DNA of 37,578 nucleotides from NCBI GenBank assembly GCA_020059465.1, contig JAGVBZ010000010.1:1-37578 (forward strand). The letters run 5' to 3'. A model generated the notes under the pieces. That model saw only the letters and a list, made by a program, of their open reading frames with translations, ran no database searches and was not told where the DNA came from. Made by a program: the position numbers and the translations under genes. How positions within the stretch are numbered: the first letter of the stretch is position 1; every line of letters begins with the position of its first letter. This document shows positions 2,058 to 36,238 of this stretch, one piece after another. This DNA comes from Brevinematales bacterium. Lineage in GTDB: Bacteria > Spirochaetota > Brevinematia > Brevinematales > GWF1-51-8.

Positions 2058-3476
2058 ATGAAGAAGTTTTTACCGTTCATTCTACTTATTGTACTTCCAT
2101 GTGTAGGGTTTGCATCGGAGAACAATACGAACCGTGTCAACCTGATGATCATGCCGCTTAAAAATATGACTGAAAAGGATAATCTCGCGGGTTCCGAAAA
2201 TTACCGTATCCTGTTCTTCGGGCCGGTATATAATTTTGTCCAGATTATCCCGGGCGTTTCCCTTCCCGATCGCGATAAACTTCTTTCAATGAAATTCCAT
2301 GGATCAAATATTACTACATTCGCCGCACTCAATCCGTCGGACTTTATTATTTACGGCGACTATGCCTTGAAAGGAAAAACCAAAAAAGATCAGAAACTAT
2401 ATATCAACCTTTATGTCTGGTCTCAAAAGCTCGGTGCGGTTTTCTTCCAGAAATCATACACCTCCGGGACCGATTTCGAAGTTCTCGACGCTATCGATAA
2501 TATGCTTGAGGATATTGTCGCGCAGACACTCCAGAAACAGCTTGATGTCGCGACACTGCAATTCAGCGGTTTCCGGATCGGTAACGAAAAATACGGATTG
2601 TACATCAACGATAAATATATCTCCGATGTTGCCGGCAACGGATACAGTATGAATCTGAAAGTTCTCGCCGGACAGAAGTATCAGGTTACCCTCCGCAATC
2701 TATCCACTACAGCCGTCGCGTTCGATCAGACATTTACCCCAAAAAAGGGCGAAGCGATCACGATCGGATATTACGCTGTAGGTGTTATCGATATTCCGGA
2801 AATCCCGAATAAAAAATCGAAATCGGTATATGACCTTTATCTTATCCATGCCGCCGAGACGAATAAAGTATCGGAAAAGACCATTCTGTCGAACATTTAT
2901 GCAGGGCGCGATTATACGTTTTGGCTGATCGAAGACAAAACAAATTACATTTATACGAATACCTTTACTCTCCACGATAAAGAAACCGTCAAGATTAAGC
3001 CTGTTGTAAAGGGGTTTGGCGGTTTCTCGATGCGTCTGAACCTGAACGACGGATTATTGTTTGTTGCCTACGGCGATTATTTCTGGAATAACTGGTTTTA
3101 TACCGGTATCCTTCTCGGCATCAGTCCGGTACCGCTTATCGGAGACTGGGGTAATGCTTTTCCCGGCGAACAGTTCATGCTGAGTATGGCCGGCGGTATC
3201 GATATCGGCGCTTATATACTGGGAAGCCGCGGATCGCAGGGCTTTCGTCTCGCAGCCGGTGTTTCGGCACGCTATTACTTCTCCGTTATTGCACCCGAGC
3301 TTTTGAAAACATCCATGGTGTTCAGCCCTGCACGAAGCTTTGTGGTCGGTCCGCATGTAATGCTGGAATACGAATTCCTGATGCTCAGCGCCGGATTTTA
3401 CTTCGCGCCGTTAGCGAACTTTGAAACATACCAGTTCCCGATTACTCTTTCGCTGGGCGTGCGTTTCCATTTTTAG
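2058..3476 (+). CDS. Exported protein with putative outer-membrane beta-barrel C-terminus
   Basis: This 472-residue protein has a Sec signal peptide (residues 1-19, ...VGFA). Residues 27-160 look like the CsgG/TolB-N type of alpha/beta domain that computes as 'MIMPLKNMT...' at the start and has FIIYGDYAL in the middle. Residues 165-310 hold two beta-rich repeats, each with a 'YGLYIND/YDLYLIH' strand followed by a 'LAGQKYQVTLR/YAGRDYTFWLI' strand; these look like PEGA-type units. Residues from about 320 to the end show alternating amphipathic strands and finish in R-F-H-F, the aromatic C-terminus usual for BAM-assembled barrels. I infer an outer-membrane location. It precedes the lipoprotein array and could be functionally tied to it, but a probable terminator separates them. 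Function is unknown. Confidence 0.75.
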   Translation: MKKFLPFILLIVLPCVGFASENNTNRVNLMIMPLKNMTEKDNLAGSENYRILFFGPVYNFVQIIPGVSLPDRDKLLSMKFHGSNITTFAALNPSDFIIYGDYALKGKTKKDQKLYINLYVWSQKLGAVFFQKSYTSGTDFEVLDAIDNMLEDIVAQTLQKQLDVATLQFSGFRIGNEKYGLYINDKYISDVAGNGYSMNLKVLAGQKYQVTLRNLSTTAVAFDQTFTPKKGEAITIGYYAVGVIDIPEIPNKKSKSVYDLYLIHAAETNKVSEKTILSNIYAGRDYTFWLIEDKTNYIYTNTFTLHDKETVKIKPVVKGFGGFSMRLNLNDGLLFVAYGDYFWNNWFYTGILLGISPVPLIGDWGNAFPGEQFMLSMAGGIDIGAYILGSRGSQGFRLAAGVSARYYFSVIAPELLKTSMVFSPARSFVVGPHVMLEYEFLMLSAGFYFAPLANFETYQFPITLSLGVRFHF

Positions 3477-3498: not shown

Positions 3499-3525
3499 CT
3501 TTTTCCGTGCCGGGGAAGTTTTTTT
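3499..3525 (+). terminator. Candidate rho-independent terminator after 2058-3476
   Basis: CTTTTTCC (3499-3506) can pair with GGGGAAG (3512-3518) with G-U pairs and one bulge, followed by seven T residues (3519-3525). The stem is imperfect. Confidence 0.4.
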
Positions 3526-3704: not shown

Positions 3705-4826
3705 ATGAGAAGATTACTTTTAATCTTTCCGTTTATCGTCATCTCATCATGCAGTTTATTTCACTTTTTTCCGCCCAGCGCGAATAATCAATTGACCCAG
3801 CAGAAATGGATTGGAATGCTGTCAATCCCCAATATCCGGGATTCCAAACACTATTCTATAACAGTCTATAAACCGAACAGGATTTACCTCGCGATTTACG
3901 ATTTAACAAATAATAATTTCGGGCTGGTTTCCGCGTCCAAGTCAGATGAAGACTGGGAAACCAATTACGTAACCTACGGTTCGGCCTGTGAATCGGTATA
4001 TACTGTTTACAACGATTTATGGAGCATAACATTCGGATTACAGCAGGCGGCTATGGTGCAGATAAAACAATTAAGATACGGCGTTTGGTCGAATTACGGT
4101 ATATCCCTCGGGATTGCAAATAACATGATATGGCAGTATTTTTTCAATCTCAAAAACATGGGTTATATCGCCCATATGGAGACTTCTTCAAGCTGTAAAA
4201 TAATGACTAACGATATGCCCGACCAGATAGCCAATTCATGGTCGACCTATCGTAACTTTTTTGTCAGTATTCCATATACATTCATGGATTTCTCGGCCGC
4301 CGTTGACTCGCACGGGAATGCGTTTATAGGAGCCGCCGACTTCAACCATTGCCAGGTTTTTTACAACGGGGCGGGCGGGGTTCTTTCCACAAACGATATC
4401 CCGGACGGTCGGGAGTATTCCAAGATCGTGCTCGACAATCAGAATAATTATGTATACGTCATTTATAAATCCACGAATTCCTCCATAAAAGCGCGGATAT
4501 ATAATTATAACTATCCTAATTTTACTGAAATCGGATCCCTCGATATTTATAATAAGGGGTTTTTTGTGGACGGTGCAAATCATTCCATGGGAATAAGCGT
4601 GGTGGCCGATCAAAGTTATTCCCGTATCTATGTAGGATTTATTACTATTGACGAGCATAGACCTATGGTTTTAAAAATAGAGAACGGTTATGTAACGCCT
4701 TTGGCGGTGTTTCCCGACTATCTCACAAATTGCAGATCGATAAAACTTTCCTTGAACGGCGGCGGCCAACCCGCGGCTGCGGTTCTGCAGGTACCGACTC
4801 TTCATATATTTAAATTGTGGAATTAG
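3705..4826 (+). CDS. FHFF-family lipoprotein, paralog 1 of 7
   Basis: This 373-residue predicted lipoprotein has a short signal peptide and lipobox I-S-S-C16, followed at once by the family hallmark S-L-F-H-F-F-P-P-S-A-N-N. The rest is predicted to be beta-strand rich, with recurring short units in which an aromatic or aliphatic strand is followed by a D/N-G turn and another strand (for example FSAAVDSHGNAFIGAADF and IVLDNQNNYVYVIYKS). This suggests a beta-propeller-like fold; that is inference. An ATG at 3693 is in frame, but it lies on the G-run GGGGG (3695-3699) that must serve as the ribosome-binding site, so I take 3705. Its C-terminal unit (LTNCRSIKLSLNGGGQPAAAVL) is closest to paralog 2, and only 11 nt separate the two genes. 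Confidence 0.85.
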   Translation: MRRLLLIFPFIVISSCSLFHFFPPSANNQLTQQKWIGMLSIPNIRDSKHYSITVYKPNRIYLAIYDLTNNNFGLVSASKSDEDWETNYVTYGSACESVYTVYNDLWSITFGLQQAAMVQIKQLRYGVWSNYGISLGIANNMIWQYFFNLKNMGYIAHMETSSSCKIMTNDMPDQIANSWSTYRNFFVSIPYTFMDFSAAVDSHGNAFIGAADFNHCQVFYNGAGGVLSTNDIPDGREYSKIVLDNQNNYVYVIYKSTNSSIKARIYNYNYPNFTEIGSLDIYNKGFFVDGANHSMGISVVADQSYSRIYVGFITIDEHRPMVLKIENGYVTPLAVFPDYLTNCRSIKLSLNGGGQPAAAVLQVPTLHIFKLWN

Positions 4827-4837
4827 GAGAGTGCCTG

Positions 4838-5965
4838 ATGAAAAAACTCCTTCCGGTAATAATATTGATGTTTTCATCCTGCGGGATTTTCCATTTCTTC
4901 CCGCCGGGTGTAAATAATATTATCAGCGATACTCATTGGAACGAAAAATCATCTTTTAACGGTGTGTCTGCATCGGCTCTTTATTCGATAACGCTTGATA
5001 ATAAGGATACGATTTATCTGGGATATGTTTCCAGCGCCGGATCAAACATTGTTACTATGGCATATAATAACGACAGCTCGATGTGGGATGTTATCGATAG
5101 CCCGCCCAATATCGCATCCTCTGTTAATCTGAAGTACCGCGCCGATATGGGATTATGTATCGGGTATATCAATCCCAACGCCGGAGGCGGCGGGGTACTG
5201 AAATTCAAGAATGAGAACGAAAACACATGGAGGTTTTACAGTATCAACGCTTTCGGGGATCAAACTACCGCTCTATGGGATTACGCCCTTTCTACGGGCG
5301 ATAAAGCGTTTACTGCATATACTCTATCTACCAATTACAATGTGTTCGCGGTAAATGACCTGGCAACGCCATATACAAACTCAGTATGGAAGCATATCAT
5401 GCTTTCTCCGTACAATACCGGCAATCCGATCAGCGACATTACAATCGACATCGATTCGTTTGGAAAATTGTTCATCGGTGTTGCTACATCATTCAGTAGT
5501 GCGATATTTTATACTATAGACAATATCTCTAAGAGCTTCGTATATAATGAGGGGAAACATTTCGCAAAAGTAGCGGTCGACGGATCCGACAATATCTACG
5601 GGATATATATGGAAAAAGACGGCCCTTTATCTGCCGCAGTCTTTCATATAAAAAACGGAGAACTGGTAAAAGAACATTCGTTTTCACTTTATACATCGCC
5701 CATATTGTATGATATGTCAATGCAGTATTCCATTTCTGTTGCCGCGCATAAAAAAGGAAGTCATATTTATGTAGGTTTTATTAACTTCAATACTCGAAAA
5801 CCCGCAATCCTGAAACTTGTTTCCGAAAACATTTCCCCGATGCTGGGTTTGCCCGGCGATCTGACTAACGCACAATCCATCAAACTCAGCGTGGATATGG
5901 ACGGGAATCCTGTCGCGGCGGTTCTGACAGATACGGGTAAAGTGAGAGTTTTCACAAAATGGTAA
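4838..5965 (+). CDS. FHFF-family lipoprotein, paralog 2 of 7
   Basis: This 375-residue lipoprotein has lipobox F-S-S-C15 and then G-I-F-H-F-F-P-P-G-V-N-N. It pairs with paralog 1: both share the units 'D(S)xGxxFIG(V/A)A', 'IYVGFI' and the ending 'LTN(C/A)xSIKLS...(P)xAAVL'. The frame is open from a GTG at 4817, but GGAGAG (4825-4830) sits correctly for the ATG at 4838, and starting there gives a standard signal peptide. The mature part is beta-rich with no catalytic motif visible. It is probably co-transcribed with the paralogs on both sides (gaps of 11 and 15 nt). Confidence 0.85.
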   Translation: MKKLLPVIILMFSSCGIFHFFPPGVNNIISDTHWNEKSSFNGVSASALYSITLDNKDTIYLGYVSSAGSNIVTMAYNNDSSMWDVIDSPPNIASSVNLKYRADMGLCIGYINPNAGGGGVLKFKNENENTWRFYSINAFGDQTTALWDYALSTGDKAFTAYTLSTNYNVFAVNDLATPYTNSVWKHIMLSPYNTGNPISDITIDIDSFGKLFIGVATSFSSAIFYTIDNISKSFVYNEGKHFAKVAVDGSDNIYGIYMEKDGPLSAAVFHIKNGELVKEHSFSLYTSPILYDMSMQYSISVAAHKKGSHIYVGFINFNTRKPAILKLVSENISPMLGLPGDLTNAQSIKLSVDMDGNPVAAVLTDTGKVRVFTKW

Positions 5966-5980
5966 AATAGCGAGGAACAA

Positions 5981-7087
5981 ATGAGTATTCGAAAACCGGC
6001 TTTTTTATCCCTGTTGTTTATAGTATTAAACGGATGCACGCTGTTCCATTTCTTCAACCCCGCCGCGCAGAACGAAATCAATTATTATGCGAGCCTGAAG
6101 GGGTGGGTGCAGATGGGGCAGACTTTTTCAACCGATACCTATTCCGGCGGAGAATTCTCATTCGCTTGTGATTCCCGCGGAATTCCCTATCTGTTTTTTG
6201 CCACTGCCTCAAATCTTGATACGCTCTTCCGCTACGAAGGAGAATGGGTTGTAAAGAACGAATCTACCAACTTTGGGACTTTTACCAAAGCCGTCTTACG
6301 ATTCAAACAGGATATCCCGTTTGTGGCAATACAAGATTCTTCATCTTCGCTAGGCGTATTCGATTACTTTTCCGATTATCCCTCACTGCAAAATACTTAT
6401 ATTGCCCCCATTGTGGATAATTTCGATTTTAATATCAGTCCGTCCGGAAAATTGGTTGTAGTTTTCGAGACAAACAACGGGACGGGTTATTTTGTAAATG
6501 TTAAATCATGGAACGGTTCTTCATGGAATACCAGCGCCCCTTTTAGCGAGAATTATACACTCAATTTTATCGATAATATCTATCTTGAGTTCTATGGAGA
6601 ATCGATTTATTATTTCTTGTGCGAGAATTATACCGCTATCTATTTCGATAACGGCGGACCTGCATCATCTTCGGTAAACTATTCCCCGCTTCTGGCAAAA
6701 ATCGCCGGGGATAAGGTATTCTATGTCTATAGTACCGGTGATCCGAATGTTTATTATCATGTGGAAAATGTTTCAGCGGGGGGTTACAATACCAATATTT
6801 CCACACTTCTCCGTACAAACAGTTATGCTTTAACATCCCATCCGACACTCACGGCAACAAAGAACGCGCCGTATAAAGCGTATTGCATACTGGCGGACAT
6901 TACCGGCACAAATTATTCTGTAGCCGAGATATCCATCGATAAGACTGTGAAATTCCTCGACGGGTTTCCTGTCAGCGGCTATTACAACTTCGGTTTGTAC
7001 ACCTCACCGGGCGGGGCGCTCTATCTTGTGGCCGCCCATACGTTTGCAGGCAACGAATCCCTTCAGGTTTTCCGGTATTTTGAATAA
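5981..7087 (+). CDS. FHFF-family lipoprotein, paralog 3 of 7
   Basis: This 368-residue lipoprotein has lipobox V-L-N-G-C19 and then T-L-F-H-F-F-N-P-A-A-Q-N. From about residue 35 it has the block shared by paralogs 3-7: K-G-W-V-Q-M/L-G, then 'xGGEFSFAxDSxGIPYxFF'. DNA coding for the start of the mature part (6035-6112) is almost identical to that of paralog 4 (7154-7231), with two differences in 78 bases, whereas the later halves have drifted much further. The C-terminal unit is 'LYTSPGGALYLVA...FRYFE'. The ribosome-binding site is GCGAGGA. Beta-propeller-like architecture and surface or periplasmic location are inferred. Confidence 0.85.
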   Translation: MSIRKPAFLSLLFIVLNGCTLFHFFNPAAQNEINYYASLKGWVQMGQTFSTDTYSGGEFSFACDSRGIPYLFFATASNLDTLFRYEGEWVVKNESTNFGTFTKAVLRFKQDIPFVAIQDSSSSLGVFDYFSDYPSLQNTYIAPIVDNFDFNISPSGKLVVVFETNNGTGYFVNVKSWNGSSWNTSAPFSENYTLNFIDNIYLEFYGESIYYFLCENYTAIYFDNGGPASSSVNYSPLLAKIAGDKVFYVYSTGDPNVYYHVENVSAGGYNTNISTLLRTNSYALTSHPTLTATKNAPYKAYCILADITGTNYSVAEISIDKTVKFLDGFPVSGYYNFGLYTSPGGALYLVAAHTFAGNESLQVFRYFE

Positions 7088-7105
7088 ATACTCACGGGAG
7101 ATACT

Positions 7106-8221
7106 ATGAAACATATTCTATTCGTACTACTGCTTTCGGTTAGCGTCAGTTCCTGCACGCTGTTCCATTTCTTCAGCCCCGCCGCGCAGAACGAAATCAA
7201 TTATTATGCGAGCCTGAAGGGGTGGGTGCAATTGGGAGAGACTTTTTCAACGAATATTTATGGAGGGGGCAAATTTACCTTCGCGGTTGATTCCTCCGGG
7301 ATTCCCTATGTTTTCTTCGAGGATATTAATACACATCTTCTTTTCTATCAATTCAAGGGCGGCTGGAAGCTTATCAGTCAAAACACCAACGGGATGGGAT
7401 TTAATAAAGCTATTCTAAAATTCTTAAACAACACTCCACTCATAGCAATCCTGGATTATAATAACGACTTATTTGTTTATAACTATAGTACACCTGCACC
7501 AACTGTGATTTCTTCCGGTTTAGTCTCCACAGATGTTACCGATTTTGATTTTCAGATTTCTTCGGACGGATTACCTGTTATTGCTTTCATCACGAACGAT
7601 GGCAGTTTTTCATATCTGAGGGTTCTTTATGCCGGCGGTTCTTCATGGCCGGCCTACAAAGCATTCACCAGCGAATACCAAACCCCGACAACTCTGAATT
7701 CGATGTATTTATTGCTGTCCCGGGATAATCACCCTTTCTTGTTTATGTCCTATAACCTGACTGTCGAATTGCATTACGATACCGGAGGAGGTCTCCAGAT
7801 TCGTATTACAAACGCGGATTCGTTTATACCTTCCATTGCCAACGACAGTATTTCATATGTTTTCATGGGCACCAGCGGATCGAACTGCTATAATAGTTTT
7901 CCGGTTGCCAGCCCTCAACTCGACCCTTCAGAGCAGCATACTTTTCCAATAAACAGAAATCTGTTCTACGCGAATTCTACTTTAGTAAGTTCGCCTGTTG
8001 ATCCATGGAGTACGTATTGTCTCGCATACGATGACGCGATGGTAAATTATTATGTCTATAAGATTTCGCCTTCTAAAGAAATCATCGAGATGGAAGCCCT
8101 CCCGTTTGCGGGGAGTTATTCTCCGACTCTATGTACGGGTCCGCACGGCGAACTGTATCTTCTCGCTGTAAACACATCCTCGGGTTCTAATTCTATTACG
8201 CTGTACCGGTATTTCGATTAA
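7106..8221 (+). CDS. FHFF-family lipoprotein, paralog 4 of 7
   Basis: This 371-residue lipoprotein has lipobox V-S-S-C17 followed by T-L-F-H-F-F-S-P-A-A-Q-N. It is the nearest relative of paralog 3, sharing EINYYASLKGWVQ and the ending 'LCTGPHGELYLLAVNTSSGSNSITLYRYFD'. The middle region is diverged in sequence but keeps the same rhythm of strand, D/N-G turn and strand. CGGGAG lies just upstream of the ATG, 18 nt after the previous stop. It is likely the last gene of a four-gene transcript (3705-8221), because the next gap is longer and may carry a promoter. Confidence 0.85.
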   Translation: MKHILFVLLLSVSVSSCTLFHFFSPAAQNEINYYASLKGWVQLGETFSTNIYGGGKFTFAVDSSGIPYVFFEDINTHLLFYQFKGGWKLISQNTNGMGFNKAILKFLNNTPLIAILDYNNDLFVYNYSTPAPTVISSGLVSTDVTDFDFQISSDGLPVIAFITNDGSFSYLRVLYAGGSSWPAYKAFTSEYQTPTTLNSMYLLLSRDNHPFLFMSYNLTVELHYDTGGGLQIRITNADSFIPSIANDSISYVFMGTSGSNCYNSFPVASPQLDPSEQHTFPINRNLFYANSTLVSSPVDPWSTYCLAYDDAMVNYYVYKISPSKEIIEMEALPFAGSYSPTLCTGPHGELYLLAVNTSSGSNSITLYRYFD

Positions 8222-8232
8222 CAGCCTCATAC

Positions 8233-8261
8233 TTGCAATTCCGCGCACTTTAGGGTAACCT
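8233..8261 (+). promoter_or_regulatory. Weak candidate promoter for paralog 5
   Basis: TTGCAA (8233-8238) and TAACCT (8256-8261) have a 17-nt spacer in the 72-nt gap between paralogs 4 and 5. The -10 match is poor. Confidence 0.25.
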
Positions 8262-8293
8262 ATTACTAACGTAATGTTTGAAAGGGGATTCAA

Positions 8294-9457
8294 TTGAAAA
8301 CTTATGTGTTATTAGTACTTTCAGTTTTATTTTTTAACGGGTGTGCGATCTTTCACTTTTTCCAGCCCTCGGCGCAGAATAAAATCCTTGAATTGTCGGA
8401 TACGAAACGTTTGGTTCAACTGGGCGATCCGTTAAAGGGGATAAATATTACCTCAAAGGATTTTTCGATAGGCGTCAATTCCCAGAATGTTCCTTATGTG
8501 GTGTATTATACCACCAATAACTCTCTCCAATTGTATTACTTCGATAAAGGTACGCAGAAGTGGTATCTTTACAATAGCACAGCCGCTTTCAGCGGGGGTT
8601 ATAACGCAATTCTGAATTTCATCGGTGATATCCCTTATGTGGCTTTCAAAGATAGTTCACAGTGGGGCAGAATATATAATTTTGCTTCGCCCACGCCCTC
8701 TTCCTTGACTACTAACGCCTTTACCGTGGGTTCGTATTTTTTCAGTTACGCCACTTTGCCTTCGGGTAAACACTATATCGCTTATACGACAAACATTATG
8801 GGTAGTAATACTGTGGAATTATTCGATAATTCCGCCGGGCCTTTCCAAAAAAACTTCTCTTTTTCCGGTGTGCGTAGTATGAATACAGTCGATAATCTCG
8901 ATATTAAATCCGACCGTGATAATAACATATTTGTGCTGGCCCAGTTTTACAGCAACTCGGTGATGTGTAAATTCGATGCGGGCAACACTCTCACAAAATA
9001 TCCGTTCGATAACAATATGATGGGAACATCTTTTGCTATCGACGGAGGGAACAATATCTATTATTTTTATCACCATTACGACATAGCGTATGTCTTCAAG
9101 ACATACTATGATATCCGCAATACGGGAAACCCGTCTATTGATAATTACTTTGCGAATGTATTTATGACAAACGGCGGCGTCATGTTCGGCCCGCAGACAG
9201 TCGCCGCGTCTAAGACTACTCCTTATTATTGTTACTGTTTCGCATTGCAGTTATTCTCGTACGATACAAATATTTCTATTTTCCGGGTCGCTCCGGACGG
9301 TGCGTTCAAGAATATCTGTATCGTTCAATCGAATTTTTCACTGATGAGCGATATTATCATGAAAATGACGGTTGCGCCGGACGGCACGTTATATATGGGT
9401 TCGATCAATAGCAATGCGCAGAACGGCCTGCATTTAATGATCTCCCGATTGGAATAA
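8294..9457 (+). CDS. FHFF-family lipoprotein, paralog 5 of 7 (TTG start)
   Basis: This 387-residue lipoprotein, the longest of the array, has lipobox F-N-G-C17 followed by A-I-F-H-F-F-Q-P-S-A-Q-N. Translation must begin at a TTG codon (8294). It is 6 nt after AAAGGGG (8281-8287), and the next in-frame start candidate would cut into the signal peptide. The mature part carries 'VQLGDPL', then 'KDFSIGVNSQNVPYVVYY', and ends '...MTVAPDGTLYMGSINSN...'. It is more diverged than the neighbouring pairs and has no close partner in the array. Beta-rich with no enzymatic motif. Confidence 0.83.
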   Translation: MKTYVLLVLSVLFFNGCAIFHFFQPSAQNKILELSDTKRLVQLGDPLKGINITSKDFSIGVNSQNVPYVVYYTTNNSLQLYYFDKGTQKWYLYNSTAAFSGGYNAILNFIGDIPYVAFKDSSQWGRIYNFASPTPSSLTTNAFTVGSYFFSYATLPSGKHYIAYTTNIMGSNTVELFDNSAGPFQKNFSFSGVRSMNTVDNLDIKSDRDNNIFVLAQFYSNSVMCKFDAGNTLTKYPFDNNMMGTSFAIDGGNNIYYFYHHYDIAYVFKTYYDIRNTGNPSIDNYFANVFMTNGGVMFGPQTVAASKTTPYYCYCFALQLFSYDTNISIFRVAPDGAFKNICIVQSNFSLMSDIIMKMTVAPDGTLYMGSINSNAQNGLHLMISRLE

Positions 9458-9493
9458 TTTCGATAAAAATTCCCGAAAGTGCGGAAAAATATT

Positions 9494-9521
9494 TTGAAAT
9501 TTGCATAAAATGATATATACT
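9494..9521 (+). promoter_or_regulatory. Candidate promoter for paralog 6
   Basis: TTGAAA (9494-9499) and TATACT (9516-9521) have a 16-nt spacer, 25 nt before the ATG at 9547. The surrounding region (about 9455-9546) is repeated with few changes upstream of paralog 7, and the -10 hexamer is conserved between copies. Confidence 0.55.
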
Positions 9522-9546
9522 GTATTATTATATCATTGGAAAATAT

Positions 9547-10665
9547 ATGCCTATATCAAAATCGTTTCTTATTCCCGTTGCTTTAACGCTGTTTTCTTCC
9601 TGTTCGCTTTTTCACTTCTTTCCGCCCGGCGCGCAGAATACTATCCAGCAGTTAGCGGATAAAAAGGGATGGATTCAGATTGGCCGGCCGATCGAGAACG
9701 CATCGTATAACTCGGGAGATTTCTCCTTCGATGTTCCCGTCAACGGAGCTCCCTATGTCGCCGCCAGAAACACAAATCTGGATATGGTTGTTTACCGCTT
9801 CGATGGAAAATGGCAGGCTATCAGCAGTCTGATCGGGATCAATATCCAATCCCGCCCTGTTCTCCATATTGTAAACACTTGTCCGCACGTTGCGATGAAA
9901 TCGGGTAATATGCAAGGGATGATATACGATTTCTGCAGCGATCCGCCGCAGTTGGCCGCATCGGCGCCATTCGGATCGAACTTTTCCATATTTGACTTTA
10001 AAGCGGATAATTCGGAAAGGCTGTTTACTGCTATCGAAACCAACACCGGGGGTAACTACGGCGTTTTGATAAACTATAAAACACCATCGGGCGCTTGGAC
10101 TAATTCCCAGTTCTACGGCTGGTTTCCGAACCCAATTACTTTTATAAAAATAGATTTTGATTATATGCAATACCCATATGTTTTATGGAGCTATAATAAC
10201 AATTTTACTCTGATACATCAGAAAACAGACGGTTCCTGGACAAATAATGATTTCGGATATACGCCTTATTATTTCAACTACGCGATAACCCCCGATAATA
10301 AAATGTTTCTGATTCATCAAAGCAACACGAATATGCTTTATTATGAAATTATCGATCTTGATATGGGTATCAATCCGGCGCTTTATACCAAACCGGTAAC
10401 CAACGGAGTTGTTTTGGATTATAGTCCACAAAGCGTGGCAGTATCAAAAAACAATCCCTCGGCGTGCTACATGATAGTAAATCATCCCTCAACCATGACG
10501 CATTCGGTGCTGAAATTAAGTGCGGACGGAACAGTAATCGCGACACCCGATATACCGGAAATGCAGTCCTCCGGCGAAAGAAAACTCTATGCGGCGCCGG
10601 ACGGTTCGATCTATCTATTATTCTCCAAGAGTTGGACGGTATTCGTATATAAGCTGCTCGAATAA
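9547..10665 (+). CDS. FHFF-family lipoprotein, paralog 6 of 7
   Basis: This 372-residue lipoprotein has lipobox F-S-S-C19 followed by S-L-F-H-F-F-P-P-G-A-Q-N. It forms the closest full-length pair with paralog 7: both share 'KGWIQIG(R/Q)PI', 'SGDFSFD', 'PYVAARN', 'FNYxITPDNKMFLIHQSNTN', 'NPALY' and the ending 'RKLYAAPDGSIYLLF'. The conserved blocks are spread over the whole length, which points to duplication of the whole gene together with its upstream region. TTGGAAA serves as a weak ribosome-binding site. No catalytic residues are apparent; a beta-propeller or similar repeat fold is inferred. Confidence 0.85.
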   Translation: MPISKSFLIPVALTLFSSCSLFHFFPPGAQNTIQQLADKKGWIQIGRPIENASYNSGDFSFDVPVNGAPYVAARNTNLDMVVYRFDGKWQAISSLIGINIQSRPVLHIVNTCPHVAMKSGNMQGMIYDFCSDPPQLAASAPFGSNFSIFDFKADNSERLFTAIETNTGGNYGVLINYKTPSGAWTNSQFYGWFPNPITFIKIDFDYMQYPYVLWSYNNNFTLIHQKTDGSWTNNDFGYTPYYFNYAITPDNKMFLIHQSNTNMLYYEIIDLDMGINPALYTKPVTNGVVLDYSPQSVAVSKNNPSACYMIVNHPSTMTHSVLKLSADGTVIATPDIPEMQSSGERKLYAAPDGSIYLLFSKSWTVFVYKLLE

Positions 10666-10731
10666 TCATGTACTGATCACCCTGAAACGGAATAATTCCG
10701 ATAAAAATCCCCGAATGTGCGGAAAAATGCT

Positions 10732-10759
10732 TTAAAATTTACATAAAATGATATATACT
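10732..10759 (+). promoter_or_regulatory. Candidate promoter for paralog 7
   Basis: TTAAAA (10732-10737) and TATACT (10754-10759) with a 16-nt spacer match the copy at 9494-9521. Most of the sequence from about 10690 to 10784 repeats that upstream of paralog 6. Confidence 0.5.
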
Positions 10760-10784
10760 ATACTATTACATTATTGGAGAGCTT

Positions 10785-11906
10785 ATGCGGATTTTACAGG
10801 CGTTTTGTATTCCAGCCGTTTTTGCCGTATTTTCTTCCTGCTCGCTTTTCCATTTTTTTAATCCCGGTACGCAGAACAACATCCAGCAAATTGCGGATAC
10901 GAAGGGATGGATTCAGATTGGCCAGCCTATCCCTAACGCCGCTCAGTATTCGGGCGACTTTTCGTTCGATCTTGGCCCCGGCGGCATCCCTTATGTCGCT
11001 GCGCGAAATGTAAACTCGAATATAATTTTTTACCGTTTTGACGGAAGTTGGGTCGATATTAACAGCTTGAACAATATGGGCGCGATTGCACGTCCTATTC
11101 TCCATTTTGTAAACGGCATTCCATATGTAGCTATGCGTCTGCAATCTCTTCAGGGAATAATATATAATTTTAATATTAATCCCGCAATGCCGGCATCATG
11201 GATTTCGTTCGGGGGCGGATTTCTTCTTTATGACGTACAAAACAACCATTCCGGCACTTTTTACGCCGTATGGGAAACCAACGCCGGTTCCTATGGAATT
11301 AACATGTCTTTCGCGTCAAATGACGGGGCATGGTACACGCCTCCCGGATATATATTTTCCTTCTACTCATCGCCTATCACTTTCTTAAAGCTCGGTTTTT
11401 CCGCCGACAATCATCCTTATTTACTTTGGAGTACGAACAATTCTTTTAATTTAATTTACAGGATGAATAGTTTCGGATGGACAAACGCGAATTTTGGATC
11501 TACAGGTTATTATTTCAATTACGGGATCACCCCGGACAATAAAATGTTCCTGATTCACCAGAGTAATACCAACGCGGTTTATTATGAAATCGTAGATTTA
11601 TCCATGGGGGTCAATCCCGCGCTTTACAGTAAACAGCTCTATTACGGAATGGTTTTAGATTACAGTCCCCAGAGTGTGGTAGCATCAAAAAAGAATCCAT
11701 CGGCATGTTATATAGTTCTGAATAAACCCTTTATGAATACGCACTATGTGATTAAGCTGAACTCTGACGGAACTAGCGAGATGACTCCCGATATTCCGGC
11801 GATGGAAAATTCCGCCGAACGGAAGCTCTATGCAGCACCGGACGGATCGATCTATCTGCTTTTCACTAAAGGCTGGGATATCTATGTTTATAAACTGATC
11901 GAATAG
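10785..11906 (+). CDS. FHFF-family lipoprotein, paralog 7 of 7
   Basis: This 373-residue lipoprotein has lipobox F-S-S-C19 followed by S-L-F-H-F-F-N-P-G-T-Q-N. It is a recent duplicate of paralog 6, with matching blocks from the signal peptide to 'YAAPDGSIYLLFTKGWDIYVYKLIE'. GGAGAG lies before the ATG. It ends the array; the next gene is convergent and starts its stop codon only 7 nt away, with no terminator hairpin between them. As with the other copies, it is presumably anchored by lipid in the outer or inner membrane with a beta-rich domain exposed; the ligand or partner is unknown. Confidence 0.85.
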   Translation: MRILQAFCIPAVFAVFSSCSLFHFFNPGTQNNIQQIADTKGWIQIGQPIPNAAQYSGDFSFDLGPGGIPYVAARNVNSNIIFYRFDGSWVDINSLNNMGAIARPILHFVNGIPYVAMRLQSLQGIIYNFNINPAMPASWISFGGGFLLYDVQNNHSGTFYAVWETNAGSYGINMSFASNDGAWYTPPGYIFSFYSSPITFLKLGFSADNHPYLLWSTNNSFNLIYRMNSFGWTNANFGSTGYYFNYGITPDNKMFLIHQSNTNAVYYEIVDLSMGVNPALYSKQLYYGMVLDYSPQSVVASKKNPSACYIVLNKPFMNTHYVIKLNSDGTSEMTPDIPAMENSAERKLYAAPDGSIYLLFTKGWDIYVYKLIE

Positions 11907-25606: not shown

Positions 25607-26689
25607 TTACGGTTTATAAACCACTACCGCGTAATCACCTATTCCATTGGTATCATACCGAGCAATACTGAGATAATAATCTCCTGTCGTTAAGAAATTA
25701 TGATTCAGCCACGAATAGGTTACACCTCCGCCAAGATCGTCATTCTGATCTAAGATTGTAGTTCCATTCTTATCATAAAGCACCATACATGTATCCAGTT
25801 CAGTTCCCATCGATGCATTAGTAGTTAACATGATATAAAATCCCGTAGTCGGAACATTAAATCTAAACCAGTCCACGTCTGCTGCGGCCCCAGTTCGTGC
25901 ATAGAACCATGTTCCATCGCTGGGAATCAAGTCCTCTATTCCATATGCATTGTTTGGTTCATCCTCGTCTAAAAGATAAACCATCACGCTGTTTGTCAGA
26001 GAATGCATCGCGCTCAGATCTTTAGCGTACGCATGCATCATTTTCACACCGCCGGAATATAAGCTGATATCGAACACATTCGTCCATGCCTTGGCTACAG
26101 ACGGGGAAATGAGATGGGTATTATTGATTCCCGTGTATGCCCCCACAGCAGAAGCACCCCAGCGAACATAGACATAATCCAACGCTCCGTCGTCCTGAAC
26201 CATACCGATCAGCGAAACTGTGGGATTGTCCGGGATCTCGTAGTAGGTAGAGTTCGTGGGAGACGTGATGGAAAGAGTCGGGCGGGTCGTGCCGCCGGAA
26301 CCGATATAGATATTACATGTCTTTTCAACAGACGTGTTCCCCATCATATCCACAGCCTTCACAGTGATCAGGTTCCATCCTGTTGCGACACCCGATGCAA
26401 CGTAGTTCCATACCTGCGCTGTCGACGCGGTCAGGTTCGATGTACCGACTACGGCCGTATAAGACCCTCCGGCGATTTTCACGAACACGCTCGCTATTTT
26501 GACCTCACCCCCGGTTACCGTACCGGTAATAAGAAATCCGTTGGTAAGAAATACGGAATAATTAGTCGGGCTGGTAATCGTCACCACAAGGTCTGGATTC
26601 TTACTGGTATTATTATCCCCGGTATCGAACGTGATGGTACACCCGATAAAAAATACGGCAAACACACCCAATAACATAAATCGTTTCAT
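25607..26689 (-). CDS. Lipoprotein with two Ig-like domains and a C-terminal PPC domain
   Basis: This 360-residue lipoprotein has lipobox F-I-G-C17. Residues 34-130 and 137-240 are Ig-like repeats that begin 'VVTITSPTNYSVF' and 'TLSITSPTNSTYY'. Residues 243-360 match a bacterial pre-peptidase C-terminal (PPC) domain: DEDEPNN near the start, 'DVDWFRFNVPTTGFYIMLTTN', 'CMVLYDKNGTTILDQNDD', and 'DYYLSIARYDTNGIGDYAVVV'. PPC domains are usually found at the ends of secreted proteases; here there is no protease, so the protein is likely a surface or periplasmic binding or structural lipoprotein. GAGGAGG precedes the ATG. It has its own promoter and shares its architecture with the next gene. Confidence 0.87.
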   Translation of the reverse strand: MKRFMLLGVFAVFFIGCTITFDTGDNNTSKNPDLVVTITSPTNYSVFLTNGFLITGTVTGGEVKIASVFVKIAGGSYTAVVGTSNLTASTAQVWNYVASGVATGWNLITVKAVDMMGNTSVEKTCNIYIGSGGTTRPTLSITSPTNSTYYEIPDNPTVSLIGMVQDDGALDYVYVRWGASAVGAYTGINNTHLISPSVAKAWTNVFDISLYSGGVKMMHAYAKDLSAMHSLTNSVMVYLLDEDEPNNAYGIEDLIPSDGTWFYARTGAAADVDWFRFNVPTTGFYIMLTTNASMGTELDTCMVLYDKNGTTILDQNDDLGGGVTYSWLNHNFLTTGDYYLSIARYDTNGIGDYAVVVYKP

Positions 26690-26818: not shown

Positions 26819-27586
26819 TTAGGGCTGTGTAATCTGAATGGCATAAGTTCCTTCGAGTATGGTATTAAAACCTATTACCTTAATATAATATGTTCCACCA
26901 GCCGCAGGGGGAACAGTATAACCAATTTGTGAAAAAGTCCCGGAAAAATCATCATTGAATGCGACATGATTTACCAAATCGGTACCTTGATAAAGGAAAA
27001 TCTTTGTATCCGCATCACTTCCCGACGATGCACTGAGAGTTTTTATTGTATATGCTGTACTGCTGGCAAGTGTTACCACATACCAATCTTCATCACCGCT
27101 GGGTTGTATCTGTGCTGAGAAGGCAACAGCATTCACGGTTAATGCATCAGCCGTAAGGTAGGTATCATTCGGTTCGGTTTCATCGAAGGCGCTCCCTTTC
27201 CAGAAAGTGCGGGAAATTGTCGATACTAAATCGCCTGATGTACCTTTCACATAAACAGTAAAATAACTGTTTGCAGGTACGCTGGAAATATCGACCTGTA
27301 CACTCCATGCCTTATCCTTTGCGGTAGCAAGATTCTCTGTCCCGGAAATAACGGTGTAGGTTCCGGATGACCCGATCTTATAAGAAACATTGTCTACAGC
27401 CTTTCCGTTATCCGATACAGTACCGGCTAAAGTAAACGGAGAAGATGAAACGCTGGAATAAGAAGCTGGGCTTGTAATTTTGACTGTCGGCGCGAACGCG
27501 AGACTGAGAGTCAGTTCGCACGCCGCGAGGCCGAGCACCACAATTGCCGCAGCGGCAAGACCGAATCTTTTAGATTTTGAAAACAT
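26819..27586 (-). CDS. Lipoprotein with one Ig-like domain and a C-terminal PPC domain
   Basis: This 255-residue lipoprotein has lipobox L-A-A-C23. Residues 33-130 are one Ig-like domain (TVKITSPASYSSVSSSPFTLAGTVSDNG...). Residues 137-255 are a PPC domain, with DETEPNDTYLTADAL, 'GDEDWYVVTLASSTAYTIKTLSA', 'DTKIFLYQGTDLVNHVAFNDD' and 'GTYYIKVIGFNTILEGTYAIQI'. It is a shorter paralog of the 25607-26689 protein, lacking one Ig unit. AGGAGG precedes the ATG. A strong terminator follows, so the two related genes are transcribed separately. Confidence 0.87.
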   Translation of the reverse strand: MFSKSKRFGLAAAAIVVLGLAACELTLSLAFAPTVKITSPASYSSVSSSPFTLAGTVSDNGKAVDNVSYKIGSSGTYTVISGTENLATAKDKAWSVQVDISSVPANSYFTVYVKGTSGDLVSTISRTFWKGSAFDETEPNDTYLTADALTVNAVAFSAQIQPSGDEDWYVVTLASSTAYTIKTLSASSGSDADTKIFLYQGTDLVNHVAFNDDFSGTFSQIGYTVPPAAGGTYYIKVIGFNTILEGTYAIQITQP

Positions 27587-33386: not shown

Positions 33387-34255
33387 ACAAGATTCCTCAA
33401 TTGTTCCCTGATTTTTTCGATTTCCCCTTTTATAACGATGGTATTTTCGATAATACTATAATCGCTGGACTTAGACGCGATCGTATTGGCCTCGCGGTTC
33501 ATCTCCTGCCCGATAAAATCGAGTTTCTTACTGTCGCCGTGGATTTTCCCGACCAATACGTTATGGAACTGGGCGAGATGGCTTTTCAGTCTTACTATTT
33601 CCTCGTTGATCGCGGTGCGCGAGGAAACCATTTCAATTTCCATCATCAGCCGGTTGTCCTCGATTTTATTCGCGGACATCTCCTGTATCCGTTCGCGGAG
33701 GCTTTCCTTATACTTCTCGATACTTTGAGGATATAGCGCTTCGATCACCCCCACGCTCTCATTGATGCGTGAAAGCGAACTTTCGATATCCTCACGGGTC
33801 TTCATGCCTTCGCGGTTCATCATTTCGATGATCCTTACAATCAGGTTATTCAGCATCTCGATAACAATTTTCTCAAGTTCCTCTTCGTCGCCTACCCGTT
33901 CGAGATTGATGATTCCCTCAAGGTTCATAAAGTCGCGTACCGCAAGTTCCGCCACAATGCCGAGCTCTTTCGCCATCGATATCAGGGCGTTCTCGTACTT
34001 CTTTGCGAGGTCTTTATTCACCACAACTTCGTAGTTGTCGGCATGCTTTTCCACAACTTTTATAAACAGATCTATTTTTCCCCGGTTGAGTTTTTCAAAC
34101 ACAATATTCCTGATAAGTACTTCCAATTCGTTCAGGTAATAGCTCGATTTGACTTTAAACTCGAAATATCTTGAATTAACGCTTTTTAGCTCGATAAAAA
34201 TATCGTATTTATCGGTACATTTCATTTCGCTCGCAAACCCGGTCATGCTTCTCAT
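33383..34255 (-). CDS. yicC: YicC/YloC-family endoribonuclease
   Basis: This 290-residue protein matches the YicC family end to end: the start 'MRSMTGFAS', 'ELKSVNSRYFEFKVKS', and the C-terminal block 'KKLDFIGQEMNREANTIASKSSDYSIIENTIVIKGEIEKIREQLRNL'. YicC of E. coli is a stress-related endoribonuclease. Its ATG overlaps the RNase III stop (TAATG) and its stop overlaps gmk (ATGA), so rnc, yicC and gmk are translationally coupled, and two RNases sit side by side. Confidence 0.93.
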   Translation of the reverse strand: MRSMTGFASEMKCTDKYDIFIELKSVNSRYFEFKVKSSYYLNELEVLIRNIVFEKLNRGKIDLFIKVVEKHADNYEVVVNKDLAKKYENALISMAKELGIVAELAVRDFMNLEGIINLERVGDEEELEKIVIEMLNNLIVRIIEMMNREGMKTREDIESSLSRINESVGVIEALYPQSIEKYKESLRERIQEMSANKIEDNRLMMEIEMVSSRTAINEEIVRLKSHLAQFHNVLVGKIHGDSKKLDFIGQEMNREANTIASKSSDYSIIENTIVIKGEIEKIREQLRNLV

Positions 34256-35016
34256 TAAATATCCGCCTTAGTTTTCATTCGTTCCATCAGTTCCAAAACT
34301 TTCTGCGCGGCGTCCTGCTCGGCCGTTTTTTTACTTCTGCCATGTCCGATCGCTTTTATCTCTCCGTTCACTTCGACCTCGATTTTAAATGTTTTATTAT
34401 GATCGGGGCCTATTTCGGCGAGCACCCTATATACGGGGTATTTCTTATAGATTTCCATGGACATCTTCTGGAGTGATGTTTTATAGTCGCGAATCCCGTC
34501 GGTAAGCCTCTGCTCTATATGCTCGCGCATCAGACGCTCTACAAACCTGCAGGTAGGCTCGAATCCTTTTTCCAGGAAGTGAACGGCGATTATCGATTCG
34601 ACAATATCCGCGGTAACTTTGTTTTTTGCGCGGCTGTCATTCAAACGTTCGCCGCGGCCGAGATTGACATAATCGGGAATACCGAGTTTGATCCCCACTT
34701 CTGCAAGCGTGGTTTCATCGACAAGACTGGAACGGAACGCAGAGAGTTTCCCTTCCATAAAACGCGGATGGTCGTTAAACAGGAGATATGATATCGACGC
34801 ATTCAGGACAGAATCGCCTAAAAATTCCAAACGTTCGTAGGTCTCGGGCTGCCCGCTGGCACGGTCGATATATGACGAGTGCGTGAGCGCTCTATCCAAC
34901 AGCGCCAGCGAATGAATTCCGATTCTCAAACGTCTGCAAAGCGTCCTAAGCTGCTTCTTTCGTTCCGGAGCAAGCGCACGGTTATCCGCGAAACTTTTTA
35001 AATACGACAGTAACAT
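34255..35016 (-). CDS. rnc: Ribonuclease III
   Basis: This 253-residue double-strand-specific RNase matures rRNA. Catalytic residues are E64 and D68 in ERLEFLGDSVL and D137/E140 in ADIVES; the C-terminal dsRNA-binding domain is 'DYKTSLQKMSMEIYKKYPVYRVLAEIGPDHNKTFKIEV...GRSKKTAEQDAAQKVLELM'. The frame is open to a TTG at 35058, but the ATG at 35016 has GGTGG 5 nt upstream, so I take that start. The gene overlaps fabF by 35 nt. Adjacency of rnc to the fab genes is a common arrangement. Confidence 0.93.
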   Translation of the reverse strand: MLLSYLKSFADNRALAPERKKQLRTLCRRLRIGIHSLALLDRALTHSSYIDRASGQPETYERLEFLGDSVLNASISYLLFNDHPRFMEGKLSAFRSSLVDETTLAEVGIKLGIPDYVNLGRGERLNDSRAKNKVTADIVESIIAVHFLEKGFEPTCRFVERLMREHIEQRLTDGIRDYKTSLQKMSMEIYKKYPVYRVLAEIGPDHNKTFKIEVEVNGEIKAIGHGRSKKTAEQDAAQKVLELMERMKTKADI

Positions 35017-36238
35017 TATGACCACCAAAACCAAACGAATCACTGATAGCGTACTCAACAGGATACTCTATCGCTTTATTAGGAACATAATCCAAATCGC
35101 ATTCAGGATCGGGATCGTCGAGATTGATTGTCGGGTGAATAATACCTGTTTCGAGCATTTTTACCACCGCGACAGCCTCAATTCCGCCGGCCGCGCCTAA
35201 CGTATGCCCGGTCATACTCTTCGTTGAGTTTACCTTCAGCTTATATGCATAATCCCCGAATACACGTTTCACCGCGGTCGTCTCGGCGATATCGCCAAGC
35301 TGGGTCGACGTACCGTGGGTATTGACCAGCTGCACATCGGTCGTTTTTATTCCGGAGCGTTTTAACGCCCTTTCTATAGCGAGAGCCGCACCGCTGCCGT
35401 CAGGGCAAGGCGCGGTAATATGGTTGGCGTCGCCGCTCATCCCATAGCCGAGCATTTCCGCGTAAATTTTCGCGCCGCGTTTCTTCGCATGCTCGTATTC
35501 CTCGAGTACCAATACGCCTGCGCCTTCCGCCATCACAAACCCGTCGCGTCCCTTATCGAACGGTCTGGACGAAATGGCGGGATTGTCATAGTAGTGGGTC
35601 GAGAGGGCTTGAGCCTGTGTGAATCCGGCGATACCCAACTGGTTCATCGCCGCTTCGGAACCGCCTGTAACCATTACATCGGCATCCTCGTTGATAATAT
35701 GCATATAACTGACCGCGAGACTATGCGACGCCGACGCGCAGGCTGAGCTGATCGAATAGTTCGGGCCGCGAAATCCGTACTCGATGGAAACATGTCCCGA
35801 TGTAATATCCGTAATGATTTTCGGGATAAAAAGGGGCGAAACCCGCTTATGTCCCTGTTTATCTAAAATCAGCACGTTATCGCAGAAGCAGTAAATACCG
35901 CCGATACCCGATCCGATCAGTACGCCGACATTATTCTTGTCAAGGTCGGAATACTCGAGAAGCTTACTGTCCTCGACCGCTTCCTTCGCTACAACATAAC
36001 CGAACTGGCTAAAACGGTCCATACGTCCCGCTTTTTTACGGTCGATATAATTCTCGACTATAAATTTTTCATTCTTTATTTCTCCCGCGTATTTACACGG
36101 CGAGTCGCCCATGTCCTGGTTAGTAATATTTGTAATACCGGAATTCCCGGCTATGATGTTCTCCCAATATTCAGGAACATTCAAACCTAAGGCGTTGACG
36201 GTTCCCATACCGGTAACAACAACTCTACGTTTGGACAT
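34982..36238 (-). CDS. fabF: 3-oxoacyl-ACP synthase II
   Basis: This 418-residue condensing enzyme elongates acyl-ACP by two carbons from malonyl-ACP. The catalytic residues are C167 in SSACASASHS, H308 in NTHGTSTQLGD and H345 in KSMTGHTLGAAGG, with K340. Length and the start 'MSKRRVVVTGMGTVNALG' are standard. GGAGGT precedes the ATG. It lies only 21 nt after fabG, so there is no room for acpP between them, unlike the common fabD-fabG-acpP-fabF order. Confidence 0.96.
   Translation of the reverse strand: MSKRRVVVTGMGTVNALGLNVPEYWENIIAGNSGITNITNQDMGDSPCKYAGEIKNEKFIVENYIDRKKAGRMDRFSQFGYVVAKEAVEDSKLLEYSDLDKNNVGVLIGSGIGGIYCFCDNVLILDKQGHKRVSPLFIPKIITDITSGHVSIEYGFRGPNYSISSACASASHSLAVSYMHIINEDADVMVTGGSEAAMNQLGIAGFTQAQALSTHYYDNPAISSRPFDKGRDGFVMAEGAGVLVLEEYEHAKKRGAKIYAEMLGYGMSGDANHITAPCPDGSGAALAIERALKRSGIKTTDVQLVNTHGTSTQLGDIAETTAVKRVFGDYAYKLKVNSTKSMTGHTLGAAGGIEAVAVVKMLETGIIHPTINLDDPDPECDLDYVPNKAIEYPVEYAISDSFGFGGHNVTVVFKKFRG

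Follow-up and report, generated by a model that had tools for sequence, protein, structure and literature searches.

Seven tandem lipoprotein genes of a Brevinematales bacterium encode predicted β-propellers with a conserved aromatic motif beside the lipid anchor

Knowledge of how spirochaetes sort lipoproteins, between membranes and between membrane faces, rests largely on reporter proteins in Borrelia. There, negative charges close to the anchor affect lipoprotein sorting (PMC2987989), so the juxta-anchor position can matter in spirochaetes. In Bacteroidota, the lipoprotein export signal (LES) follows the lipidated cysteine as K-(D/E)2 or Q-A-(D/E)2 (PMC5080379). A lipoprotein gene adjoins about 52% of Slam homologs, whose cargo shares an eight-stranded TbpB-like barrel (PMC5449769). 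Here we describe seven tandem genes for predicted lipoproteins with an F-H-F-F-x-P motif after the lipobox cysteine, found in a window of 37,578 nucleotides (the whole stretch of DNA analysed: contig JAGVBZ010000010.1, or C20, of assembly GCA_020059465.1, a 3.19 Mb Brevinematales genome that is 97% complete). The locus resembles LES in that a short stretch immediately behind the predicted lipidation site is conserved, and Slam in having a lipoprotein gene beside an outer-membrane protein (OMP) gene. With a probability of roughly 0.42, we propose that the array encodes lipid-anchored propellers, that the motif docks them at the outer membrane, with the co-encoded OMP as the probable partner, and that their diverged faces bind ligands.

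The array and its juxta-cysteine motif

The array occupies 3705–11906 (+) as seven same-strand open reading frames of 368–387 aa each, starting at the first coordinates listed below. By inspection, all seven products begin with a signal peptide comprising a K/R n-region, a hydrophobic core and a [SN][SG]C lipobox, so that lipidation is predicted for each.

3705–4826, + strand: lipoprotein 1, 373 aa, N-N clade; motif CSLFHFFPPSANN at 3750–3788
4838–5965, + strand: lipoprotein 2, 375 aa, N-N clade; motif CGIFHFFPPGVNN at 4880–4918
5981–7087, + strand: lipoprotein 3, 368 aa, Q-N clade; motif CTLFHFFNPAAQN at 6035–6073
7106–8221, + strand: lipoprotein 4, 371 aa, Q-N clade; motif CTLFHFFSPAAQN at 7154–7192; DNA patch in common with gene 3
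8294–9457, + strand: lipoprotein 5, 387 aa, TTG start, Q-N clade; motif CAIFHFFQPSAQN at 8342–8380
9547–10665, + strand: lipoprotein 6, 372 aa, Q-N clade; motif CSLFHFFPPGAQN at 9601–9639; copy used for structure prediction
10785–11906, + strand: lipoprotein 7, 373 aa, Q-N clade, close paralog of 6; motif CSLFHFFNPGTQN at 10839–10877

From the lipobox cysteine on, all seven proteins match the pattern C-[SGTA]-[LI]-F-H-F-F-x-P-x-[ATV]-[QN]-N, as a preliminary description of this DNA had reported. The invariant columns in the alignment of the seven are C16, F19, H20, F21, F22, P24 and N28 and, beyond the motif, only Y61, W84, Y309 and G354. Five synonymous versions encode F-H-F-F across the seven genes, and we therefore agree with the earlier view that the amino acids, not the DNA, have been kept, with the exception of genes 3 and 4. 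In this pair, a 60-bp window over the motif is 95% identical (remainder of the pair, 47–76%), and identity reaches 84% over 164 bp (6035–6198 vs 7154–7317) beginning exactly at the cysteine codon. Since the 95% window lies at the motif within otherwise diverged paralogs, local gene conversion or a recent patch of the tag region appears probable. Genes 6 and 7 are recent duplicates, with a likeness that extends into the upstream region.

A search with a profile of the seven array proteins reveals an eighth member in this genome, alone on contig C3 and outside the window. In each of three other species of the genus, all uncultured spirochaetes, the profile detects about six copies in an array and one more that is solitary. 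The 27 members that we aligned from these four species were chosen by motif pattern, and a full-length profile recovers the identical set. As a check on circularity, a body-only profile was also searched, returning only motif-bearing members with default filters and, with the filters off, propellers with other tags as well.

With the sister species included, the pattern loosens to C-x-[LI]-[FL]-H-[FW]-[FLY]-x-P-x-x-[QN]-N, in which C19, H23, P27 and N31 are invariant (27/27) and position 24 is phenylalanine in 26 members and tryptophan in one. Among the ten residues after the cysteine, Asp or Glu occurs in one of the 27 members and Lys or Arg in none. Mean pairwise identity is 0.64 over the 13 residues from the cysteine vs 0.20 in later columns. 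Likeness as such is expected, because the genes are homologous; what stands out is that conservation is concentrated in the first 13 mature residues. A tree of the family has two clades, which end the motif in N-N and Q-N respectively, and contains old paralog groups common to several species.

The preliminary description knew of no described family with this motif, and database searches agree. Pfam gave nothing informative, with no PQQ family among its matches to the 27 members at E up to 0.1, and neither did NCBIfam (one weak match to a ‘hypothetical protein’ model, 18 bits vs a cut-off of 650). In 56 other genomes of the phylum, outside the genus, the seven-protein profile gave only weak partial matches. 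The strict motif, searched as a DNA pattern across 393 genomes of the phylum, matched in 16 genomes outside the genus, none of these matches lying behind a signal peptide; one extra match in a sister species is antisense to another gene. A scan of about 85,000 GTDB genomes with [FLV][SN][SG]Cx[LI]FHFF yielded 72 stretches, two of which are family members, both from metagenome assemblies of this genus (Spirochaetes bacterium GWF1_49_6 and GWF1_51_8). The other 70 stretches are unread, and unrelated lipoproteins with the strict motif may exist outside the genus.

Predicted fold and related segments on other lipoproteins

An AlphaFold2 model of the gene 6 protein, the one member modelled, was calculated from 15 family sequences and displays a β-propeller of about 28 strands (pLDDT 87.4, pTM 0.84). 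Given this number of strands, the array body is predicted to be a seven-bladed propeller, in keeping with the earlier description of a β-rich body far more varied than the motif (20% vs 64% identity). As this is a known fold, the claim of a ‘new system’ was overstated. The propeller spans from about residue 41, preceded by a helix (residues 27–38) that begins at the conserved proline, while residues 1–23 have pLDDT below 50. Foldseek against the PDB ranks the PLL lectins of Photorhabdus highest (E 6e-9, TM about 0.6–0.67), followed by the propeller proteins LGI1, polysaccharide lyases and sialidases, with seven-bladed structures at the top. At the level of the model, these matches favour a binding or enzymatic propeller in general, without singling out sugar binding. 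A search of PDB sequences with the family profile gave weak matches, mostly to propellers, PLL not being among them.

When the profile is restricted to the N-terminal 48 residues, other lipoproteins of the order match too. In the same genome, these include CALFYPQFFVEDAI, on a propeller related by the body-only profile (E 3e-20), as well as CAFILPPSISEDYI, CDLFHNTDIGNML and the products of a contig C45 array, which have CGLFFIDG or CGLLFTTS. Our first reading, that the motif is confined to one family and has no wider meaning, was overturned by these N-terminal-only searches.

The contig C45 genes (L096 3337–7656, L196 14836–19128, L197 3–1729) form a second tandem array, encoding five or more lipoproteins with lengths near 410 aa. 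The one member scanned matches PD40 propeller repeats, and related arrays are present in sister species.

In a sister family of the same order (f3), the tag takes the form C-[GEH]-L-[FL]-[YF]-P-P, which in most cases continues as x-[FV]-Y-E. It is found on a propeller that is a distant relative of the window family (L150 5837–7932, E 6e-7), a YCF48-like protein (L150 6940), an RCC1 protein (L105 95–1192) and β-helix proteins (L155 6111–7346, L111 853–2934), with lipoproteins of different bodies sharing an N-terminal module of the same signal peptide and C-x-L-[FL]-[YF]-P-P start. A lipoprotein in a sister species of the window genus (L279) carries an f3-like tag, CNFTLPPNVYEKL, and a profile of five f3 tags matches FHFF members at 2.5e-5 and 3.2e-5, values to which the signal peptide contributes part. 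Judged from these sequences, bodies and juxta-cysteine segments combine both ways, most clearly in f3. The strict motif looks like the genus form of a wider hydrophobic juxta-cysteine module. An N-terminal profile search, of the kind proposed in the preliminary description, returned related tags in the order, with the strict motif found in this propeller family only; FHFF is not itself a shared tag, since it was not found outside one propeller family and genus.

The upstream outer-membrane protein gene and the role of the motif

Two features lie directly upstream of the array.

2058–3476, + strand: predicted OMP, 472 aa, with a signal peptide, a periplasmic part and a C-terminal barrel-like part ending ...SLGVRFHF; proposed partner of the lipoproteins
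3500–3518, + strand: terminator-like hairpin with a T-run between the OMP gene and the array (consensus match only)

The OMP is 64–83% identical in the three sister species, making it far better conserved than the lipoproteins, and in these species the first array lipoprotein starts 9–11 bp after the OMP stop. Where the window has the hairpin, they have a further array copy that is missing from the window genome. Among 100 genomes, relatives of the OMP were found in the window bacterium’s own family (f1) and in f3 only, the OMP family being absent from 94 other genomes of the phylum. Each f1 or f3 genome has several paralogs (those of the window genome include copies on contigs C8, C23 and C31; L139, L140 and L141), in which the N-terminal part is common and the C-terminal parts differ. 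No known domain was found for the common part. One of nine aligned homologs matches OMP_b-brl in Pfam (5e-6), the window OMP itself having no Pfam match, and profile searches of the PDB with the OMP gave no match. The closest homologs outside the genus directly precede lipoproteins that start CGLFYPPAFYE, CGLFYPPLYDT and CELFFPPSVYE.

In an 800 kb sample of the window genome, 72 lipoproteins were called by a simple lipobox rule, certainly including some false positives. The pairing recurs there: OMP-family genes adjoin lipoproteins with CALFYPQFF, CALFDELLEPND, CAFILPP and CDLFHNTD plus CSLADILFHPSD. Five of the seven OMP genes of this genome adjoin a lipoprotein vs 18% expected (p 0.003). By count of hydrophobic residues in the eight positions that follow the cysteine, OMP-adjacent lipoproteins are more hydrophobic than others in this genome (Mann–Whitney p 0.003), with p 0.03 and p 0.16 for the same comparison in genomes G005 and G008. 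A stratified permutation across the three genomes, with the array itself not counted, gives p 0.001.

Because related bacteria put similar stretches on unrelated proteins, some of them beside the same kind of OMP, the conserved stretch probably serves as a docking tag and is not an element of the propeller itself. Each propeller would be tethered by a juxta-cysteine module consisting of an aromatic stretch with an invariant histidine and then a proline starting a short helix. This module, as the genus form of a hydrophobic segment that lipoproteins of the order carry, often encoded beside one OMP family, would dock the lipoprotein at the outer membrane in the same way for all paralogs, probably against the OMP of 2058–3476. 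The diverged propeller faces may then bind different ligands, possibly glycans. A membrane-proximal docking element is the simplest reading since the segment is lipid-adjacent, uncharged, aromatic and outside the confident fold, with relatives on other folds, and the OMP family is suggested as the partner by the recurring gene pairing. Outer-membrane location, docking to the OMP and ligand binding are what we infer from this combination. The preliminary description had offered a sorting or export tag, or a docking site; conservation of the amino acids in four species, the low-confidence tether outside the fold, the similar modules on unrelated folds in f3 and the OMP link all favour a role of this kind.

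Several observations weigh against docking to the OMP. In the window genome, 228 bp and the terminator-like hairpin separate the OMP gene from the array, and two of the seven OMP genes have no adjacent lipoprotein. Conversely, the solitary family copies retain the full motif with no OMP of this family seen adjoining, and there are other lipoproteins, likewise hydrophobic after the cysteine, whose genes do not adjoin such an OMP gene. The association tests were post hoc, the rule having been picked after examples, and used small samples in which genes of one genome are not fully independent. An AlphaFold2 model of the OMP from two sequences only reached pLDDT 37 and does not confirm the OMP fold.

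The main rival to docking is a role at the lipid interface, which we regard as somewhat unlikely. It needs no protein partner: the aromatics and leucine would lie in the lipid headgroup region, the proline would cap the linker helix and so set the distance and angle of the propeller, and the OMP link would be operon history. The hydrophobic, aromatic and nearly charge-free stretch is what such an anchor would look like, the solitary copies retain the motif in the absence of a neighbouring OMP gene, and many other lipoproteins of these genomes are hydrophobic after the cysteine with a different sequence. Strict invariance of H23 and N31, however, exceeds the needs of interfacial packing and thus argues against mere hydrophobicity, and hydrophobic juxta-cysteine stretches are enriched beside one OMP family. 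It is improbable, in our estimate, that the motif is instead a surface-export signal, recognised by a flippase or translocon, be it the OMP or a different protein, that takes the propellers to the cell surface as for LES and Slam. The placement right behind the lipidated cysteine (as for LES; PMC5080379), the lipoprotein genes beside an OMP gene (as for about half of Slam homologs; PMC5449769) and the similar tags on several folds in f3 are in its favour, but the LES consensus is absent, the OMP’s barrel part, at about 150 residues by inspection, is short and small for a translocon, and several strong relatives of the tag do not adjoin an OMP. Nor was a Slam domain (PF04575) found in four genomes, in a search without a positive control, the control genomes also lacking a match. 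Shared ancestry with gene conversion among tandem copies, leaving a motif without special function, has the gene 3/4 patch and the recent duplication of genes 6 and 7 on its side; it is very improbable given that the other copies differ at synonymous motif positions, that the paralog groups are old and common to several species, and that solitary copies on other contigs have kept the motif.

The docking reading could extend to the whole order. Here, a hydrophobic or aromatic code after the cysteine (CxLFHFFxPxxQN, CxLFYPPxxYE, CALFYPQFF, CALFDELLxPxD) would pair lipoproteins of many folds with an undescribed OMP family that holds or displays them at the outer membrane, and this sorting or docking system would differ from both LES and Slam. 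We consider this extension speculative and rather unlikely.

Elsewhere in the window, adjoining lipoprotein-like genes at 25607–26689 and 26819–27586 (−) have Big_7 Ig-like and PPC (pre-peptidase C-terminal) domains. In a fatty-acid synthesis cluster at 34255–35058 and 34982–36238 (−), a ribonuclease-III-like open reading frame overlaps the end of a fabF-like gene by ~77 bases (names from reading translations only).

Comparison with described systems

The PLL/PHL lectins of Photorhabdus are the best fold match and have seven blades, as in the array protein model. They differ in sequence (about 13% identity, and none among the profile matches in PDB sequences), and the array proteins are lipid-anchored and tandem. 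BamB is likewise a lipid-anchored β-propeller, and Foldseek also matched the model to a BAM complex entry (9cnz_B). As a PQQ-type propeller with eight blades and a single gene copy, BamB differs from the array proteins, which are multi-copy, with seven blades predicted and no PQQ match in Pfam. Set beside LES, the array motif is aromatic, with an invariant histidine and proline and essentially no acidic residues, and so does not conform to the consensus. Compared with Slam, the array cargo is a predicted propeller, not a TbpB-like barrel.

To our knowledge, no positive juxta-lipid motif with a candidate receptor is known outside LES of Bacteroidota and Slam. The fixed stretch, the similar stretches on several f3 folds and the linked OMP family make up a concrete, testable pairing; were that pairing wrong, the lipidated propellers would still stand as a new family, unusual in its membrane-proximal element. 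The propeller fold and lipoprotein–OMP gene pairs are already known. As far as Pfam, NCBIfam and the literature were searched, the novelty lies in the family itself, in the aromatic motif beside its lipid anchor and in its link to this OMP family.

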